Assembly (NCBI RefSeq): GCF_024519435.1
Contig: NZ_JALJRZ010000003.1
Location: 186,001-250,000 of the forward strand
Direction: 5' to 3'
Length of the DNA: 64,000 nt
From: Terrabacter sp. Ter38
Lineage (GTDB): Bacteria; Actinomycetota; Actinomycetes; Actinomycetales; Dermatophilaceae
How positions within the stretch are numbered: position 1 is the stretch's first letter; each line of letters begins with the position of its first letter. Both the position numbers and the translations under genes were made by a program. The notes beneath the pieces are model-generated. The model did not search any database. It worked only from the letters and a program-made list of their open reading frames with translations, and was not told the DNA's origin. Below, piece after piece: positions 43,847 through 50,234 of the stretch.

Positions 43847-44461
43847 TCAGCGCAGCCGCACGACGCGTCCGGTCGTCGTGACGTAGCCGTCGACCGGGAG
43901 GTCGTGGGCGTCGGCCGGCAGGTCCGTCTCGCTCTGCTCGCCCTCGTGGAGCAGCGTCACGACGGGGGTGGCCGGGTCCCGGTGGAGCAGGGCCCGGTCG
44001 TAGCAGCCGCCGCCCTGGCCGAGGCGCGTCCCGTGTCCGTCGACGGAGAGCCCGGGCGTGACGACGAGGTCGCACGTGGCGAGGGCGTCGGTGCCGAGCC
44101 AGCCGTGTCGCTCCTCGTTGTCCGGTGCGTGGCCGCCGTGGCCGGGGCGGCGCACGGTCGCGTCGTCGCCCGAGGTGCCCGGGACGGCATACCTCCACTC
44201 GAGCGAGAAGTCGTCCTGCACGACGGGCACGATGACCTCGTGCCCGGCCGCGAGGAGCGCCTCGACGAGGCGGCCCGTCGGCGGCTCGTCCGGGAGGGAC
44301 TCGTAGACCGCCACCCGGGACGGGTCGGGCACGAACCGGAGCACGGCCCCGGCGATCGCCGCCGCGGCGGCGTCACGCTCGGCCGGGGTGAGGCGCGAGG
44401 CGATCTGGCGCCGCCTGGCCCGCGCGGCGTGACGCAGGTCACGCTTGCCCAGGCCGCTCAC
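43847..44461 (-). CDS. 5-formyltetrahydrofolate cyclo-ligase
   Basis: 204 aa from the GTG at 44461. Typical blocks: GLGKRDLRHAARARRRQI, VAVYESLPDEPPTGRLVEAL, then the ATP/folate region DLVVTPGLSVDGHGTRLGQG followed by GGCYDRAL. It converts 5-formyl-THF to methenyl-THF with ATP. There is no ribosome site before this GTG; its first bases overlap the stop of a 12-codon leaderless micro-ORF (GTGA), so initiation probably relies on that. In-frame GTGs upstream (44470 and beyond) are alternatives. It is divergent from the galU-glp fusion gene. Confidence 0.85.
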   Translation of the reverse strand: MSGLGKRDLRHAARARRRQIASRLTPAERDAAAAAIAGAVLRFVPDPSRVAVYESLPDEPPTGRLVEALLAAGHEVIVPVVQDDFSLEWRYAVPGTSGDDATVRRPGHGGHAPDNEERHGWLGTDALATCDLVVTPGLSVDGHGTRLGQGGGCYDRALLHRDPATPVVTLLHEGEQSETDLPADAHDLPVDGYVTTTGRVVRLR

Positions 44462-44496
44462 GGTGAGCACATTTCGCGCACTCGGGTGACGCACAT
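44458..44496 (-). CDS. Leaderless micro-ORF (MCVTRVREMCSP) upstream of the cyclo-ligase
   Basis: ATG at 44496 lies exactly 7 nt after a minus-strand TACGAT (-10). Twelve codons follow, with Cys at positions 2 and 10, and the TGA (44460-44458) overlaps the GTG start of the cyclo-ligase. This is the architecture of leaderless regulatory uORFs in mycobacteria, where Cys-rich versions respond to cysteine supply. With only two Cys a sensing role is speculative; coupling alone would explain it. Confidence 0.4.
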   Translation of the reverse strand: MCVTRVREMCSP

Positions 44497-44503
44497 GCGG
44501 CCC

Positions 44504-44513
44504 ATCGTAAGGT
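44504..44513. promoter_or_regulatory. Overlapping divergent -10 boxes for the cyclo-ligase and galU-glp genes
   Basis: Within ATCGTAAGGT, the minus strand reads TACGAT (44509-44504) and the plus strand TAAGGT (44508-44513). Each is 7 nt from an ATG (44496 on minus, 44521 on plus). The two polymerases cannot bind at once, so the promoters should compete. Confidence 0.55.
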
Positions 44514-44520
44514 GATGCCC

Positions 44521-47163
44521 ATGAGTGACCAGGGGCTCCACGCGTCCGTCGCACTGATGCGCGACCGGGGCCTCGGTCCTGAGGCGATCAGGGTGTTCGA
44601 GCACTACTACGAGCAGCTGCAGGCCGGGGCCCTCGGCACGATCCCCGAGGAGTCGATCGAGCCCCTCGGCGAGGTGCAGACCCTCCGCGGGGTCCAGGTG
44701 TCCGACGAGGAGGCACGCGAGGCGCTGTCCCGCACCGCCATCATCAAGCTCAACGGCGGCCTCGGCACCGGGATGGGCATGACGGGCGCCAAGTCCGCGC
44801 TCGAGGTCAAGGACGGCCTGACCTTCCTCGACATCATCGCCCTGCAGGTGCTGGCCCTGCGTGAGCGCTGGGGCGTCGAGCTCCCGCTCGTGCTCATGAA
44901 CTCCTTCCGCACCTCGGAGGAGTCGCTCAAGATCCTCGCGAAGTACCCCGACCTGCCGGTCGAGGGGCTGCCGCTCGACTTCATCCAGAACGCCGAGCCC
45001 AAGCTGCGCCCCGACGACCTCATGCCGGTGCACTGGCCCGACGACCCCGAGCTCGAGTGGTGCCCGCCGGGCCACGGCGACATCTACGTCTCGCTCGTCA
45101 CGTCCGGTGTGCTCGACTCCCTGCTGGAGAAGGGGATCCGCTACGCGTTCCTCTCCAACTCCGACAACCTCGGCGCGACGTGCGACCCCGATGTCGCGGC
45201 GTGGATGGTCGAGCACGGCCTGCCCTACGTCGCCGAGGTGTGCAAGCGCACCAAGAGCGACCGCAAGGGCGGCCACCTCGCGGTGCGCAAGTCCGACGGC
45301 CGGATCGTGCTGCGCGACACGGCGATGGTGGCCGAGGGGGAGGAACGCTACTTCCGCGACATCAAGCGGCACAGCACCTTCAACGCCAACAACGTGTGGA
45401 TCAACCTCGAGGTCCTGCGCGAGCGGATGACCGCCAAGCAGGGCGTCCTCGGCCTGCCGATCATCGTCAACCACAAGAACGTCGACCCCGCCGACCCGAG
45501 CTCGCCGGAGGTCATCCAGATGGAGTCGGCGATGGGCACGGCGATCGAGGTGTTCGAGGGGTCCGAGGCGATCCTCGTGCCGCGCACCCGCTTCCGTCCG
45601 GTCAAGACGACGAACGACCTGCTCGTCATCCGGTCCGACTTCTTCACCCTCGACAAGGGCTACCACGTCGTCGCGACCGTCGACGCGCCCGAGCCCTACG
45701 TCGACCTCGACTCGGCCTACCGCTTCGTGTCGGGCTTCGAGCAGCGCTTCCCCAAGGGAGTGCCCTCGATGCGCGACTGCACGAGCCTGCGCGTCATCGG
45801 TGACCCCGTCTTCGGCCGCAACGTCCGCTGCGTCGGCGAGGTGCTCATCGACGGTTACCGCCGCGTCCTCGACGACGCCGTGCTCGGCGAGCTGCCGACG
45901 CCGACGCCGGCGCCCGTCACGACACCGGGTGACGTGCGCACGGTCGACGAGCACCTCAAGGCCATCCTCTCGACGCTCGAGCCGTCGCCGACCGAGTGGA
46001 CTCCGCTCACCGAGGCCCTCGGCCTCGTCGTGGCCCGCGACGTCCGTGCCAAGGTCAACCTGCCGCACTTCGACAACTCGTCGATGGACGGGTATGCCGT
46101 CCGCTCCGAGTCGCTCGCGTCTGCCGGAGGCTCCCCGGTGCGGTTGCGCATCGTCGGCGAGGTCGCCGCGGGTGCCAACCCGACCTTCTCCGTGGGCGTC
46201 GGAGAGGCGGCCAGGATCATGACCGGCGCCCCGATGCCCGAGGGTGCCGACGCCGTCATCGCCGTCGAGGACACCGACGCGGCCGCGACGGGCGACGTGG
46301 AGTGTCGCGTGGCGGTCACCCCGGGTCGCTTCATCCGTCGGCAGGGCGAGGACGTGTCGTCGGGCGAGATCATCGTCTCCGCGGGCGAGGTCGTCGGCGC
46401 CCGCACCATTGCGCTGCTCGCCGCGTGCGGTCATGCCCAGGTCGAGGTCCACCGCCGGCCGCACGTCGTCGTGCTGTCGACGGGTGCCGAGCTCGTCGAG
46501 CCCGGAAAGCCCTTGCAGCCCGGTCAGATCCACGACTCCAACTCCTCCATGCTCTGGGCAGCCGCCGTCGGCGCCGGAGCCTCGGCCGAGATCCGGGCGG
46601 CGGTCGGCGACTCCGACGAGGAGCTGCTCGCCGTGCTCGACGAGGTCGTCGCCGAGGCCGATGTCGTCATCACGAGCGGCGGTGTCTCGATGGGGGCCTA
46701 CGACGTCGTCAAGAGCGCTCTGCGTGGTGAGGGCATCGACTTCGTCAAGGTGGCGATGCAGCCCGGCAAGCCGCAGGGCTACGGGCTGCTGACCGGACCG
46801 GGTGGCAGGCAGGTGCCGCTCTTCGCCCTGCCCGGCAACCCGGTGTCGTCGTTCGTGTCGTTCGAGGTCTTCGTGCGACCGGCGCTGCGCCGGCTGATGC
46901 GCCTGACTCCCGAGAAGCGACGACTGCGGCCGGCCACGCTCATCTCCGGCGTCGAGTCCTTCGGCGGGCGGCGCCAGTTCGGTCGTGCCGTCGTGTCACG
47001 GTCGGCCGAGGGCACCCTCGTCGCCGTCCCCGTCGCGGGCCAGGGCTCGCACTTCGTCGCCGACCTCTCCCGGGCCAACGCGCTCTTCGTCGTTCCCGAG
47101 GACGTGACCGAGCTCGTCGCCGGCGAGGTCGTCGACGTCCTCGTCCTCGACAAGGAGGCCTGA
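44521..47163 (+). CDS. UDP-glucose pyrophosphorylase fused to MoeA/Glp (gephyrin-like) domain
   Basis: 880 aa. Residues 1-~455 are a eukaryotic-type UTP-glucose-1-P uridylyltransferase: IIKLNGGLGTGMGMTGAKSA (K76), FLSNSDNLGATCDPDVAAWM, NNVWINLE. A Pro/Thr linker (LPTPTPAPVTTPGD, ~456-471) leads to a full MoeA-type domain from ~472: FDNSSMDGYAVRSE, IMTGAPMPEGADAVI, VVLSTGAELVEPG, TSGGVSMGAYDVVKSAL, FALPGNPVSSFVSFEVF. No stop or frameshift separates them. In related actinobacteria galU and glp are adjacent separate genes with rimJ and glpR, the same neighbours as here. The second half could act as molybdotransferase, as divisome Glp, or both. Leaderless start (TAAGGT, 7 nt). Confidence 0.88.
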   Translation: MSDQGLHASVALMRDRGLGPEAIRVFEHYYEQLQAGALGTIPEESIEPLGEVQTLRGVQVSDEEAREALSRTAIIKLNGGLGTGMGMTGAKSALEVKDGLTFLDIIALQVLALRERWGVELPLVLMNSFRTSEESLKILAKYPDLPVEGLPLDFIQNAEPKLRPDDLMPVHWPDDPELEWCPPGHGDIYVSLVTSGVLDSLLEKGIRYAFLSNSDNLGATCDPDVAAWMVEHGLPYVAEVCKRTKSDRKGGHLAVRKSDGRIVLRDTAMVAEGEERYFRDIKRHSTFNANNVWINLEVLRERMTAKQGVLGLPIIVNHKNVDPADPSSPEVIQMESAMGTAIEVFEGSEAILVPRTRFRPVKTTNDLLVIRSDFFTLDKGYHVVATVDAPEPYVDLDSAYRFVSGFEQRFPKGVPSMRDCTSLRVIGDPVFGRNVRCVGEVLIDGYRRVLDDAVLGELPTPTPAPVTTPGDVRTVDEHLKAILSTLEPSPTEWTPLTEALGLVVARDVRAKVNLPHFDNSSMDGYAVRSESLASAGGSPVRLRIVGEVAAGANPTFSVGVGEAARIMTGAPMPEGADAVIAVEDTDAAATGDVECRVAVTPGRFIRRQGEDVSSGEIIVSAGEVVGARTIALLAACGHAQVEVHRRPHVVVLSTGAELVEPGKPLQPGQIHDSNSSMLWAAAVGAGASAEIRAAVGDSDEELLAVLDEVVAEADVVITSGGVSMGAYDVVKSALRGEGIDFVKVAMQPGKPQGYGLLTGPGGRQVPLFALPGNPVSSFVSFEVFVRPALRRLMRLTPEKRRLRPATLISGVESFGGRRQFGRAVVSRSAEGTLVAVPVAGQGSHFVADLSRANALFVVPEDVTELVAGEVVDVLVLDKEA

Positions 47164-47666
47164 TGAGCGACGTCACCGAGGAGCCCGGAGCTCGCGAGGC
47201 GCCCGGCCTGACCCACGTGCGCGCCGACGGCAGCGCCCACATGGTCGACGTCTCGGCCAAGGCCGTGACCGCCCGCCAGGCCAGCGCGGCGGGGCGCGTC
47301 CTGCTCAGCGCCGACGCCGTCGCGGCGTTGCGCTCGGGGAGGGTCCCCAAGGGCGACGCCCTGGCGGTCGCCCGCATCGCCGGCATCCAGGCCGTCAAGC
47401 GCACGCCCGAGCTCATCCCGCTCGCGCACCCGATCGCCGTGCACGGTGTCGAGGTCGACGTGACGGTGGCCGACGACGGCGCCGACATCACGGCGACGGT
47501 GCGCACCGCCGACCGCACGGGCATCGAGATGGAGGCGCTGACCGCGGTGTCGGTCGCCGCGCTCGCTCTCATCGACATGATCAAGGCCGTCGACAAGCAC
47601 GGCCGGATCACCGACGTCCGCGTCACGGCGAAGTCCGGTGGCCGGTCGGGGGACTGGCGTGAGTGA
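47163..47666 (+). CDS. moaC: Cyclic pyranopterin monophosphate synthase
   Basis: 167 aa. MoaC blocks: GSAHMVDVSAKAVTARQASA, VPKGDALAVARIAGIQAVKR, LIPLAHPIAVHGVEVDVTV and GIEMEALTAVSVAALALIDM then IKAVDK. It carries out the second half of the MoaA/MoaC step that makes cPMP, the first molybdopterin intermediate. The ATG overlaps the preceding stop (TGATG), so it is translated with the fusion gene. The molybdenum cofactor made could serve the sulfite-oxidase-like enzyme at 57.3 kb. MoaA, MoaD and MoaE are not in the window. Confidence 0.95.
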   Translation: MSDVTEEPGAREAPGLTHVRADGSAHMVDVSAKAVTARQASAAGRVLLSADAVAALRSGRVPKGDALAVARIAGIQAVKRTPELIPLAHPIAVHGVEVDVTVADDGADITATVRTADRTGIEMEALTAVSVAALALIDMIKAVDKHGRITDVRVTAKSGGRSGDWRE

Positions 47667-48153
47667 GGGTCCGGGCGTGGGGCGCCGGGCCGTCGTCGTC
47701 ACGTCCTCGACCCGGGCCGCCGCCGGCGTCTACGCCGACCGGTCCGGCCCGGTCATCGTCGAGCGGCTCCGCGCCTGGGGCTTCGAGGTGGGCGAGCCCG
47801 TCGTCGTGCCCGACGGGGACGAGTTCGGCCTGGCGCTGCGCGAGGTCCTCGCGAGCGAGCCGGAGCTCGTCATCACGACCGGGGGGACCGGCCTCACCCC
47901 GACCGACGTGGCACCCGAGCAGACCGCGCCGCTGCTCGACCGGCTCGTCCCCGGCGTCGCCGAGGCGATCCGCGCGGCCGGCGTCGGCAAGGGGGTGCCG
48001 ACGGCCATGCTCTCGCGGGGTCTCGTCGGCGTCGCCGGGCGCACCTTCGTCGCCAACCTCCCGGGGTCGCGCGGCGGCGTGACCGACGCCCTCGACGTGC
48101 TCGAGCCGGTCGTGGGCCACGCCCTCGACCAGATCCCCGGCAGTGACCACTGA
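47659..48153 (+). CDS. Molybdopterin adenylyltransferase (MogA/MoaB family)
   Basis: 164 aa from the GTG at 47659, which overlaps moaC by 8 nt (GGGGG 6 nt upstream). Family blocks: RAVVVTSSTRAAAGVYADRS, ELVITTGGTGLTPTDVAPEQ and MLSRGLVGVAGRTFVANLPG then SRGGVTDALDVL. It adenylates molybdopterin before molybdate insertion by MoeA. With moaC and the MoeA-type domain it forms a partial cofactor operon, which is an argument that the fusion's C-terminal half still works in cofactor synthesis. Confidence 0.9.
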   Translation: MSEGPGVGRRAVVVTSSTRAAAGVYADRSGPVIVERLRAWGFEVGEPVVVPDGDEFGLALREVLASEPELVITTGGTGLTPTDVAPEQTAPLLDRLVPGVAEAIRAAGVGKGVPTAMLSRGLVGVAGRTFVANLPGSRGGVTDALDVLEPVVGHALDQIPGSDH

Positions 48154-48222
48154 CGTGAGGACCCGGACCCGCTTGCGCCACGTGGTGATCCGGCGTCGAC
48201 CGATGACCATGGGGTCGGTCGG

Positions 48223-48861
48223 ATGAGGATGCCGTGGCGCCCCCACCGGGACGGTCAGGCCCGCTGGCCGGTCGTCCTGCGTGATGCCTCGTCCGAGCCC
48301 ACGATCGTGCTGCGGCCCCTGCGTCTGGACGACGAGCGCGACTGGCAGCGCGTGCGGCGCGACAACGCGGCATACGTCCAGCCGTGGGAGCCCACCCTCC
48401 CGCCGGGTTCGCCGGCGCGGGCTCCGGTCCCGTTCCGGCAGTTCGTGCGCGACCTCGACACCGAGGCGCGCGCCGATCGCGCCATGCCGTGGTGCATCGA
48501 GGTCGGCGGTCGCATCGTGGGTCAGGTCCACCTCTTCGGGATCGTCCGCGCCGCGCAGCAGTCGGGTGCTGCCGGCTACTGGCTCGACGAGTCCGTCACG
48601 GGGCAGGGCATCGCGACCCGCGCCCTGGCGCTGGCGGTCGACCACGCTCTCGGCGCGGGTGGGCTGCACCGCGTCGAGGTCAACATCCGACTCGACAACG
48701 TTCCCTCGCTGCGCGTGGTCGAGCGGCTCGGCCTGCGTGACGAGGGAGTGCGCGAGCGTTTCCTCCACATCGACGGCGCGTGGCGCGACCACCGCTCCTT
48801 CGCCGTCACGATCGAGGACCTGGGCGGCTCGACTCTCACGGCTCGCCTGTCACAGGTGTAA
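48223..48861 (+). CDS. RimJ-like GNAT N-acetyltransferase
   Basis: 212 aa. RimJ/L layout: TIVLRPLRLDDERDWQRVRR, a central IVGQVHLFGIV, the acetyl-CoA loop VTGQGIATRALALAVDHAL and NVPSLRVVERLGLRDEG then FLHIDGAWRDHRSFAV. The family acetylates N-termini of ribosomal or other proteins. In actinobacteria a gene of this type stands between glp and glpR, as it does here. ATG at 48223; the ribosome site is weak (GGTCGG). The gene ends 70 bp before glpR. Confidence 0.88.
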   Translation: MRMPWRPHRDGQARWPVVLRDASSEPTIVLRPLRLDDERDWQRVRRDNAAYVQPWEPTLPPGSPARAPVPFRQFVRDLDTEARADRAMPWCIEVGGRIVGQVHLFGIVRAAQQSGAAGYWLDESVTGQGIATRALALAVDHALGAGGLHRVEVNIRLDNVPSLRVVERLGLRDEGVRERFLHIDGAWRDHRSFAVTIEDLGGSTLTARLSQV

Positions 48862-48918
48862 CACCAGCCTCTTGCGCGACACGCCTCGAATGTGCGGGGC
48901 CGTTACCGAACCGCGTCC

Positions 48919-48924
48919 TACCGT
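48919..48924 (+). promoter_or_regulatory. -10 box of the leaderless sepX/glpR-like gene
   Basis: TACCGT, 7 nt before the GTG at 48932, with no ribosome site. Confidence 0.5.
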
Positions 48925-48931
48925 GGGTCAC

Positions 48932-50047
48932 GTGCCCGTCAGCAGCCTCATCTTCGTCGTCATCGTGGCGATCTGGGCTGCCTATCTCGTGCAGCACTGG
49001 GCCCGCCGCCGCGAGGACGCCGCCGCGACCCGGTCGGTCGACGGCTTCTCCGAGGCCATGCGCGTCCTCGAGAAGCGACCGGCCCTGCCGACCGCGGCGC
49101 TGAGCACCCCGCGCCCGCACTCGTATGCCGTCAAGCCCGCGAGCACCGGCCGTCCCACCGTCGATGTGAAGCGGGCCGTCCCCGCGGGCACGTCGCGCCG
49201 GCACTCTCCGCTCGTCGCCCGTCGCTCCGACGAGCGCGTGCTCGCGAGCTCGCTCGTCGCGTCGGGCCCCTCGTCAGACCAGAGCCAGACCGACCACGAC
49301 ATCGCCCCCTACTCCGCCGAGGTGGACCGCATGCCCGAGTCAGCGCGATCGACGAGCCACGCGGACCGGAGGCCGGCTCGACCCACGGCCCCCCCTCGGG
49401 TTCCGCTGGCACAGCGCCGCCTTCGCGCGGCGCTGCTCCTCGTCGCGGTCGCATGGCTGCCGGTGTCCGTCGTGCTGACGGTCACCGACGTGCTCATGTG
49501 GATCTCCATCCCGTTCGCCGTGCTCACCGTCGCCGCCGTCCTCGTGTGGCTGCGGGCCGAGGCCCAGGCCGACCGCCTGCGCGCCAGCTCGGATGCGGGG
49601 GAGAGCCGCGGTCAGCGTGGTCGGCGGGGTCGCCGCCGCGCCAGGTCCTACGACGCGCACGATGCTGCGCACCACGTGCCGCTCCTCTCGAGTGACGACA
49701 CCCAGGTCATCCGCAGCGCCGCCGCGGCGGCGCCGTCGGAGGTCGTGGCGGTCTCGCAGGCGTCGCAGGCCGTCGAGGCCCAGCACGTCGAGCCCGGCGT
49801 CTTCGACGTCCAGGCCCCGATCACCGGTGAGGTGCCCGTCGCCGTGGCCGCCGTCGAGCAGCCCGCCGAGGGCAGCTGGAGCCCGGTCCCGGTGCCGCGC
49901 CCGACCTACTCGCTCAAGGCCAAGGCCGAGCCGCGCTACACCGAGTCCGGCATCCCGGCCGACGTCTTCGACACGCCTGAGTTCGCCGAAGAGGCCGAAG
50001 AGCTCGACGACCGGGCCCTCTTCGCCCGCCGCGCCGTCTCCCAGTAG
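48932..50047 (+). CDS. SepX/GlpR-like divisome membrane protein
   Basis: 371 aa. An N-terminal TM helix (SSLIFVVIVAIWAAYLV) is followed by RRREDAAA and a long disordered cytoplasmic stretch. A TM hairpin lies around residues 160-205 (AALLLVAVAWLPVSVVLTV, MWISIPFAVLTVAAVLVWL) and a second disordered tail ends with VPRPTYSLKAKAEPRYTESG. This topology, the P-x-PTY-x-LK tail motif and the galU-glp-rimJ context match SepX (Streptomyces) and GlpR (Corynebacterium). These help place FtsZ and bind Glp. The protein has its own leaderless promoter. The function is inferred from family and context. Confidence 0.78.
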   Translation: MPVSSLIFVVIVAIWAAYLVQHWARRREDAAATRSVDGFSEAMRVLEKRPALPTAALSTPRPHSYAVKPASTGRPTVDVKRAVPAGTSRRHSPLVARRSDERVLASSLVASGPSSDQSQTDHDIAPYSAEVDRMPESARSTSHADRRPARPTAPPRVPLAQRRLRAALLLVAVAWLPVSVVLTVTDVLMWISIPFAVLTVAAVLVWLRAEAQADRLRASSDAGESRGQRGRRGRRRARSYDAHDAAHHVPLLSSDDTQVIRSAAAAAPSEVVAVSQASQAVEAQHVEPGVFDVQAPITGEVPVAVAAVEQPAEGSWSPVPVPRPTYSLKAKAEPRYTESGIPADVFDTPEFAEEAEELDDRALFARRAVSQ

Positions 50048-50078
50048 GCCCGCCCCGCTCACGGTTGCCCTGAGCCGA

Positions 50079-50152
50079 CGGTTCGGGGGCCGCGGCGCGC
50101 GAATGGCTGGCGGCTCGGGTCTCGCGCCGTCGGTTCGGGGGCCGCGGCGCGC
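50079..50152 (+). repeat. 22-bp direct repeat pair after the sepX/glpR-like gene
   Basis: CGGTTCGGGGGCCGCGGCGC(GC) occurs at 50079-50100 and again at 50131-50152, identical over 22 bp and 52 bp apart. It lies in the short gap before the shared terminator. Possibly a small duplication; function unknown. Confidence 0.85.
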
Positions 50153-50177
50153 CACGGGCGGCCGGGGCTGGGTACGC

Positions 50178-50219
50178 GTCCGGCTGGGTCCCTGCTCATG
50201 AGCGGGGACCCAGCCGGAC
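50178..50219. terminator. Long bidirectional terminator
   Basis: GTCCGGCTGGGTCCC (50178-50192) pairs perfectly with GGGACCCAGCCGGAC (50205-50219). The loop contains the palindrome GCTCATGAGC. It lies between converging genes. Confidence 0.9.
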
Positions 50220-50234
50220 GGCATTCGACCTCGG

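Follow-up and report, generated by a model that had tools for sequence, protein, structure and literature searches.

The fused gene and its locus

The window analysed in this work, a whole stretch of 64,000 nucleotides from Terrabacter sp. Ter38 (contig NZ_JALJRZ010000003.1; its genome is referred to as G000), carries a gene in which a eukaryotic-type UDP-glucose pyrophosphorylase (UGP) is joined to a domain of the MoeA/Glp type. The open reading frame (ORF) of 880 codons started with ATG at 44521 and ended with TGA at 47161-47163 on the forward strand, with zero internal stops. Four Pfam domains were detected in the 880-residue protein, UDPGP at residues 25-436 (412 bits), MoeA_N at 474-637, MoCF_biosynth at 651-790 and MoeA_C at 809-876, each above its cut-off and near full profile length, which confirmed the single-frame fusion of a complete UGP with a complete MoeA proposed in the initial annotation. 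In the AlphaFold2 model the protein formed two confident domains with a predicted template-modelling score of 0.55, and the only run with a per-residue confidence (pLDDT) below 50 was found at residues 458-470, as expected for two bodies on a loose tether.

The initial annotation had also placed moaC and mog directly after the fusion and a SepX/GlpR-like gene in the same locus, and all of them were recovered (Table 1), with a rimJ-like gene, absent from that annotation, lying before the SepX/GlpR-like gene. The best NCBIfam match of the mog ORF was the MoaB part of PRK03604, below its cut-off. At the left border, the divergent cyclo-ligase ORF overlapped the start of the fused gene and its Pfam match spanned residues 38-226.

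Table 1. Coordinates of the fused gene, its parts and the neighbouring genes in the window
Feature	Position	Strand	Evidence
Fused gene UGP - linker - MoeA, 880 residues	44521..47163	+	ORF, Pfam, NCBIfam
UGP domain, eukaryotic-type UDP-glucose pyrophosphorylase, residues 1-445	44521..45855	+	PF01704, motifs
Linker region, residues 446-471, variable part 455-471	45856..45933	+	alignment of 16 fused proteins, pLDDT
GTG, former start codon position of separate moeA/glp	45934..45936	+	matches moeA start in split relatives
MoeA/Glp-locus domain, residues 472-880, domains I-IV	45934..47160	+	Pfam, NCBIfam, AlphaFold2, Foldseek
moaC	47163..47666	+	PF01967, TIGR00581 above cut-off
mog/moaB-type molybdopterin adenylyltransferase	47659..48153	+	PF00994; TIGR00177 above cut-off
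rimJ-like GNAT acetyltransferase	48223..48861	+	PF13302; syntenic in relatives
SepX/GlpR-like membrane protein, 371 residues: N-terminal transmembrane segment, basic loop, two transmembrane segments, acidic tail	48932..50047	+	
5-formyltetrahydrofolate cyclo-ligase ORF, divergent, left locus border	43847..44554	-	PF01812, synteny

Occurrence and single origin of the fusion

The fusion was found in 17 of 186 genomes of the family, as counted from the search rows, in six genera, and the carriers, which are soil bacteria, included by name Terrabacter, Terracoccus, Humibacillus and Intrasporangium flavum. The fused proteins of the nearest relatives, Terrabacter sp. Root85 and Terracoccus sp. 273MFTsu3.1, were 98% identical to that of the window. 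One genome (G002) was counted as fused on residues 407-880, which run from a contig end and span the junction; in two others (G075, G095) the UGP match ended near a contig edge and the state was not callable, and no uninterrupted match over both domains was found in the remaining rows of the 186 genomes. The initial annotation had considered that relatives might carry two separate genes and no fused case, and the tabulation returned both forms. In samples drawn evenly from larger groups, the fusion was detected only in G000 and G023 among 297 genomes of the order, and only in G000 among 396 genomes of the phylum. In the tree built from UGP together with MoeA of 35 genomes (G002, the duplicate G029x and G048 were left out), the 16 full-length fusions formed one clade with support of 95/99, whose sister was the split locus of G029. 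The UGP and MoeA genes were thus joined once.

The long frame was also weighed as a product of faulty sequencing or a read-through artefact near 45850-45960; in its favour, a difference of one frame is all that sets the closest split relative apart. Yet 16 other assemblies, whose linkers differ, also have an open frame across this junction, and the relatives already refute the explanation; we give it almost no credence and take the frame at 45850-45960 as genuine.

Junction and linker

The junction was read in 13 split loci (G015 and G184 gave no junction match; G020, G030, G176 and G178 were not included). In the nearest three (G029, G096, G070) the UGP stop started 4 nucleotides before the GTG start of moeA, and in the other ten it lay 2 to 9 nucleotides before the moeA start or overlapped it (G025). 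Among 16 fused loci, the former moeA start was GTG in 8, CTG in 4, GTC in 2, CTC in 1 and ATC in 1; the inner start had therefore decayed in half of them, and no Shine-Dalgarno-like word preceded it in 13 of the 16. Where GTC, CTC or ATC stands at the old start, separate initiation of the MoeA half is hardly possible, at least in those loci. In the window, a TGA at 45930-45932, out of frame before the old GTG, is positioned as the UGP stop of the split genes. It was tried as a fossil stop and rejected, as G008 and G003, the sisters closest to the window, have CGA there.

The linker was 14 to 26 residues long in the fused proteins, and no column of its part 455-471 was invariant among the 16 aligned, against 63% invariant columns in UGP and 55% in MoeA. 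In ten pairs compared with G000, the ratio of nonsynonymous to synonymous substitution rates (dN/dS) was 0.04-0.34 for UGP, 0.11-0.32 for MoeA and 0.07-1.76 for the linker, for which it exceeded 1 in 5 of the 10 pairs. Both halves are under purifying selection and the linker is far less constrained.

The UGP half

The UGP half matched PF01704 with 412.4 bits against a cut-off of 22, covering positions 3-411 of the 413 of the profile. Six motifs chosen by the author from the alignment with solved UGPs (LNGGLGTGMG, PPGHGD, SNSDNLGA, KGGH, NANNVW and RFRPVKT) were all intact in 16 of 16 fused proteins. The nearest solved chains were 3gue and 2oef, which we take to be trypanosomatid UGPs; the window protein resembles this eukaryotic type in its full-length match and motifs and differs from it in the C-terminal MoeA extension. 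With one UGP and no GalU match at an E-value of 1e-25 in G000, the UGP half is the only UDP-glucose pyrophosphorylase of either type found in this genome.

The MoeA half as a candidate molybdenum insertase

Thirteen site positions of E. coli MoeA were compared, nine of which were taken from the titles of mutant structures in the PDB; D259, K275, P298 and P301 were assumed to be site residues as well. The window and most other fused rows (15 of 17 in all) kept 12 of the 13, the sole change being K279 to Q, and G023 and G089 kept 11, with K275 to R in addition; G021 and G015, for which no ORF was picked up, were not part of this alignment. D228, D259, K275 and K279 were lost in C. glutamicum Glp. 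All 8 second MoeA copies compared, from the fused clade and G029, were altered at D259, K275, K279 and R350, and 7 of them at S371. The second, diverged moeA of G000 lies on contig C43 (73231-74394; L124, 4027-5433) near a MobA-like NTP transferase ORF (L124, 7172-9247).

A single MoeA was present in 28 of 40 genomes. Because PF00384 also covers NuoG, a match was taken to indicate a likely molybdoenzyme only if it was stronger than 1e-45. Such matches were found in 14 of the 16 single-MoeA relatives tested (G011 and G016 failed), and in 15 of the 16 the contig of the single MoeA also carried a GlpR match, a few kilobases away at most. The exception, G016, is a family member with a moeA, no GlpR match, no PF00384 match and a galU away from moeA. 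The combination of a single GlpR-linked moeA with molybdopterin-oxidoreductase genes in many genomes of the family suggested that the locus protein is probably an active molybdenum insertase there. This bears on the published view of Glp (PMC11733289), according to which two or more copies of moeA are present in bacteria that express Glp, and Glp itself has a degenerate molybdenum site and a lost enzymatic role, contrary to the site of the fused MoeA, which is not degenerate.

The MoeA domain was modelled with a pLDDT of 91.9, and its best Foldseek matches were Cnx1E, gephyrin E and C. glutamicum Glp. With the monomer model, the template-modelling scores were about 0.90 for Cnx1E, up to 0.87 for gephyrin, 0.75-0.82 for C. 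glutamicum Glp and 0.70-0.84 for the listed E. coli MoeA chains. The fold comparison was tried as a test between the open (Glp) and the closed (MoeA) form and gave no decision, with Cnx1E nearest and the ranges of Glp and E. coli MoeA overlapping.

Several observations weigh against an insertase. K279 is Q in the fused MoeA, and the same exchange has been engineered in E. coli MoeA (K279Q, title of 2nro), although Q is the commonest residue at this position in the actinobacterial rows. Each of the 7 fused genomes counted, like the sister G029, had 2 copies of moeA, so synthesis of the molybdenum cofactor (Moco) need not depend on the fusion. The NCBI cut-offs for MoeA were missed (PRK10680, 340.8 of 440; MoeA_actino, 453 of 560), and membership of the MoeA half in these named families is not claimed.

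Likeness to Glp

The best NCBIfam match of the MoeA half was Glp_gephyrin (NF045515), whose cut-off of 475 was missed by the window (465.7), by two other fusions (458.2 and 470.7) and by the split G029 (470.0). Nine residues of C. glutamicum Glp contact FtsZ (V338, L343, L360, M361, R362, A364, Y369, L370 and F414; PMC10522489). Two of them, R362 and A364, were kept in the window; both also occur in E. coli MoeA, which itself has three of the nine. Five changes remained hydrophobic (L343I, L360V, Y369L, L370V, F414V) and two did not (V338R, M361S), the alignment of the loop being uncertain. The initial annotation had named a fully conserved MoeA site together with the loss of every FtsZ contact as evidence against a divisome role, and this was nearly but not fully observed, with 12 of 13 site residues and 2 of 9 contacts kept.

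Hinge 1 of the window reads EPSPTEWTP and hinge 2 HRRPH, with one proline compared with YPRPR in C. glutamicum. By eye, hinge 1 had at least two prolines in 17 of 17 fused rows, as it has two in E. coli MoeA. The C-terminal peptide of FtsZ was DLDVPDFLK or ELDVPDFLK in 15 of 16 genomes and ELDVPEWLK in G019. In the MoeA tree, from which five near-duplicate fused rows were left out, the fused copies and C. glutamicum Glp stood apart, but the branch of the latter is long. The tree was rejected as a test of Glp orthology, since both this protein and E. coli MoeA have an odd composition and long branches, which attract each other; synteny is therefore the basis of the comparison with Glp. Four Corynebacteriales MoeA loci (L063, L066, L068 and L092) were tried as Glp and rejected, having none of the other seven locus query genes in their flanks; they served only as outside rows, and the two that were scored (L063, L092) passed the MoeA_actino cut-off.

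Gene order and the exchange of galU for UGP

Thirteen fused loci besides the window (11 named ones, G023 and G034) were mapped. All showed the divergent cyclo-ligase followed by UGP, moeA, moaC, mog, rimJ and glpR, so that moaC and mog came after the fusion and the GlpR-like gene was the second after mog in 13 of 13. The split locus of G029 had the same order from the cyclo-ligase on, as had that of G009 from UGP to glpR, the stretch mapped there beginning at the end of UGP.

In relatives without UGP (G035, G012, G031, G017 and the named Rhizohabitans and Nanopelagicales loci), galU occupied the position of UGP; there was no cyclo-ligase match within the stretch of G017, no GlpR match at the Rhizohabitans locus and no Mog match at the Nanopelagicales locus. 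Because galU fills the same position there, UGP stands in the place of galU. Among 53 genomes, 28 had UGP, 22 galU, 0 both and 3 neither, and galU lay directly upstream of moeA, as judged by coordinates, in 16 of the 22 galU genomes. The comparison of L213, L221, L224, L225 and L079 with the window gives the picture of a bacterial galU replaced in place by a eukaryotic-type UGP within a conserved locus. A fusion of galU with moeA was absent from all 12 loci inspected; for 345 genomes of the class, none appeared among the best matches listed, and each of the 25 listed same-frame spans over both proteins had at least one stop.

SepX/GlpR-like genes

The SepX/GlpR-like protein of the window matched NF050099 with 87.0 bits against a cut-off of 150. 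All 27 genomes and the C. glutamicum control stayed under this cut-off, so the model is narrow; a match to it was found in 26 of the 27 family and order genomes. The hydropathy of the protein, with one N-terminal and one double-length hydrophobic stretch, would fit three transmembrane segments. By charge and isoelectric point, its loops were basic and then acidic, whereas C. glutamicum GlpR has the opposite order. The window shares this arrangement with all 13 fused loci that were measured (L046-L052, L054-L056, L059, L137 and L223), and the first loop of the split G029 was near-neutral. Just past glpR, at 50070-50225, inspection by eye showed a short GC-rich phrase that is repeated, ggttcgggggccgcggcgcgc, and a palindrome, gtccggctgggtcc...ggacccagccggac, possibly a terminator.

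In four families of the order (f3, f4, f11 and f20), 26 of 33 chosen genomes had no MoeA match, and 21 of these 26 had a match to the GlpR model, many of them weak. Three examined closely (G056, G045, G434) had no MoeA match and a multi-transmembrane gene directly after rimJ; in G056 the order was galU, rimJ and a gene with three transmembrane segments, with moeA, moaC and mog missing. These genes lie at about 355-3741 in L231 (G056), from 3453 onward in L232 (G045) and at about 1700-3910 in L233 (G434). GlpR/SepX-like genes in MoeA-less genomes indicated that GlpR does not always go with Glp. A strict co-occurrence of Glp and GlpR in the order was therefore rejected; it fails on those 21 genomes, and also on 5 of 7 MoeA-bearing f3 genomes that had no GlpR match.

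Discussion

Our work placed a UDP-glucose pyrophosphorylase and a MoeA-type domain in one polypeptide. We consider it likely, from the residues and genes conserved at the locus, that the product is a bifunctional polypeptide, UDP-glucose pyrophosphorylase and molybdenum insertase, arisen by fusion of neighbours of an old operon. The UGP and moeA/glp genes would have been adjacent in an actinobacterial operon, where the UGP stop and the moeA/glp start, a few nucleotides apart, may have become one frame in one event. The C-terminal domain, with its conserved site, would act as molybdenum insertase, for which moaC and mog in this operon would do the preceding service, and we infer that both activities are retained. 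By homology, the fused protein is presumably dimeric through its MoeA half, and one MoeA dimer would then carry two UGP domains on flexible linkers. The initial annotation had offered a bifunctional enzyme and a divisome tether as alternatives, and the former was better supported, by the 12 of 13 site residues, by moaC-mog in all mapped fused loci and by the PF00384 matches of 14 of 16 single-MoeA relatives.

Under the tether, the C-terminal half would be a non-enzymatic Glp scaffold that binds FtsZ and GlpR and holds the sole UDP-glucose pyrophosphorylase at the septum. The linkage to GlpR, seen in all 13 fused loci and widespread beyond them, and the intact FtsZ tail agree with it, as do the Glp_gephyrin best match and a pyrophosphorylase that stays beside moeA through a change of enzyme family; the hinge 1 prolines would fit too, but E. 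coli MoeA has two there as well. But the Glp cut-off was missed in 3 of 3 fused proteins scored, the window keeps fewer FtsZ contacts than E. coli MoeA, with V338, M361 and Y369 replaced, the site is not degenerate as described for Glp (PMC11733289), C. glutamicum Glp did not group with the fused copies, and GlpR genes occur without MoeA; we therefore regard a scaffold of this kind as improbable. It is also conceivable that the fusion is neutral, its domains acting as when separate with at most a fixed 1:1 stoichiometry. The linker of variable length without an invariant column, its dN/dS above 1 in half of the pairs, and the confinement of the fusion to one clade, with no GalU counterpart in the loci and listed matches, would suit this explanation. 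The retention of the fusion in 17 genomes of six genera and the decay of 8 of 16 inner starts speak against it, yet are compatible with neutrality, and we hold it to be rather unlikely. Returning to the bifunctional polypeptide, its dimer could possibly dock on GlpR and bring UDP-glucose synthesis to the membrane or septum. That it keeps its insertase site and also docks on GlpR, perhaps on FtsZ, placing Moco and UDP-glucose at the septal membrane, appears doubtful.

The fused domain shares with C. glutamicum Glp (Cgl0883; PDB 8bve, 8bvf; PMC10522489) the MoeA fold and the linkage to a GlpR gene; that galU/UGP, rimJ and cyclo-ligase are neighbours comes from loci mapped in relatives rather than from C. 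glutamicum. D228 and D259 are gone from C. glutamicum Glp, which carries the FtsZ loop M361...Y369, whereas the fused domain keeps the site, lacks those loop residues, is joined to UGP and goes with a GlpR of basic-acidic loops, the published one being reversed. With the insertases MoeA, Cnx1E and gephyrin E it has in common the fold and 12 of 13 E. coli site residues, and it differs from them in its fusion to a sugar nucleotidyltransferase and in Q for K279. MoeA is known fused in gephyrin and Cnx1 (with MogA) and in archaeal MoeA1 (with a PBP-like domain) (PMC11733289), and NCBIfam holds a model for a MobB-MoeA fusion (NF011060). These likewise join a Moco enzyme to another domain, but the partner in the window is not a Moco or metal-binding protein. 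UgtP and OpgH use UDP-glucose and bind FtsZ. They are glucosyltransferases of B. subtilis and E. coli, respectively, that couple nutrient state to division (PMC3723540, PMC5889556); the window protein, in contrast, is predicted to make UDP-glucose, and FtsZ binding is only a candidate property there. No paper on a UDP-glucose pyrophosphorylase-MoeA fusion or a galU-Glp divisome link was found in a search without most subscription journals and bioRxiv preprints, and no word beginning galU or UDP occurred in the main texts of the Glp papers PMC11733289 and PMC10522489.

The locus offers a clean one-event fusion with living split relatives, between two enzymes sharing no metabolic step, and it raises the question of why MoeA/Glp and the synthesis of UDP-glucose stay linked among Actinobacteria. 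If the docked bifunctional dimer were true, a metabolic enzyme would be hard-wired into the divisome and could make division respond to respiration and to the supply of sugar nucleotides; the pyrophosphorylase kept beside moeA through the swap from galU to UGP would then mean that selection keeps the partnership and not the gene. Terrabacter and Intrasporangium are natural systems for testing the divisome tethering of a metabolic enzyme.

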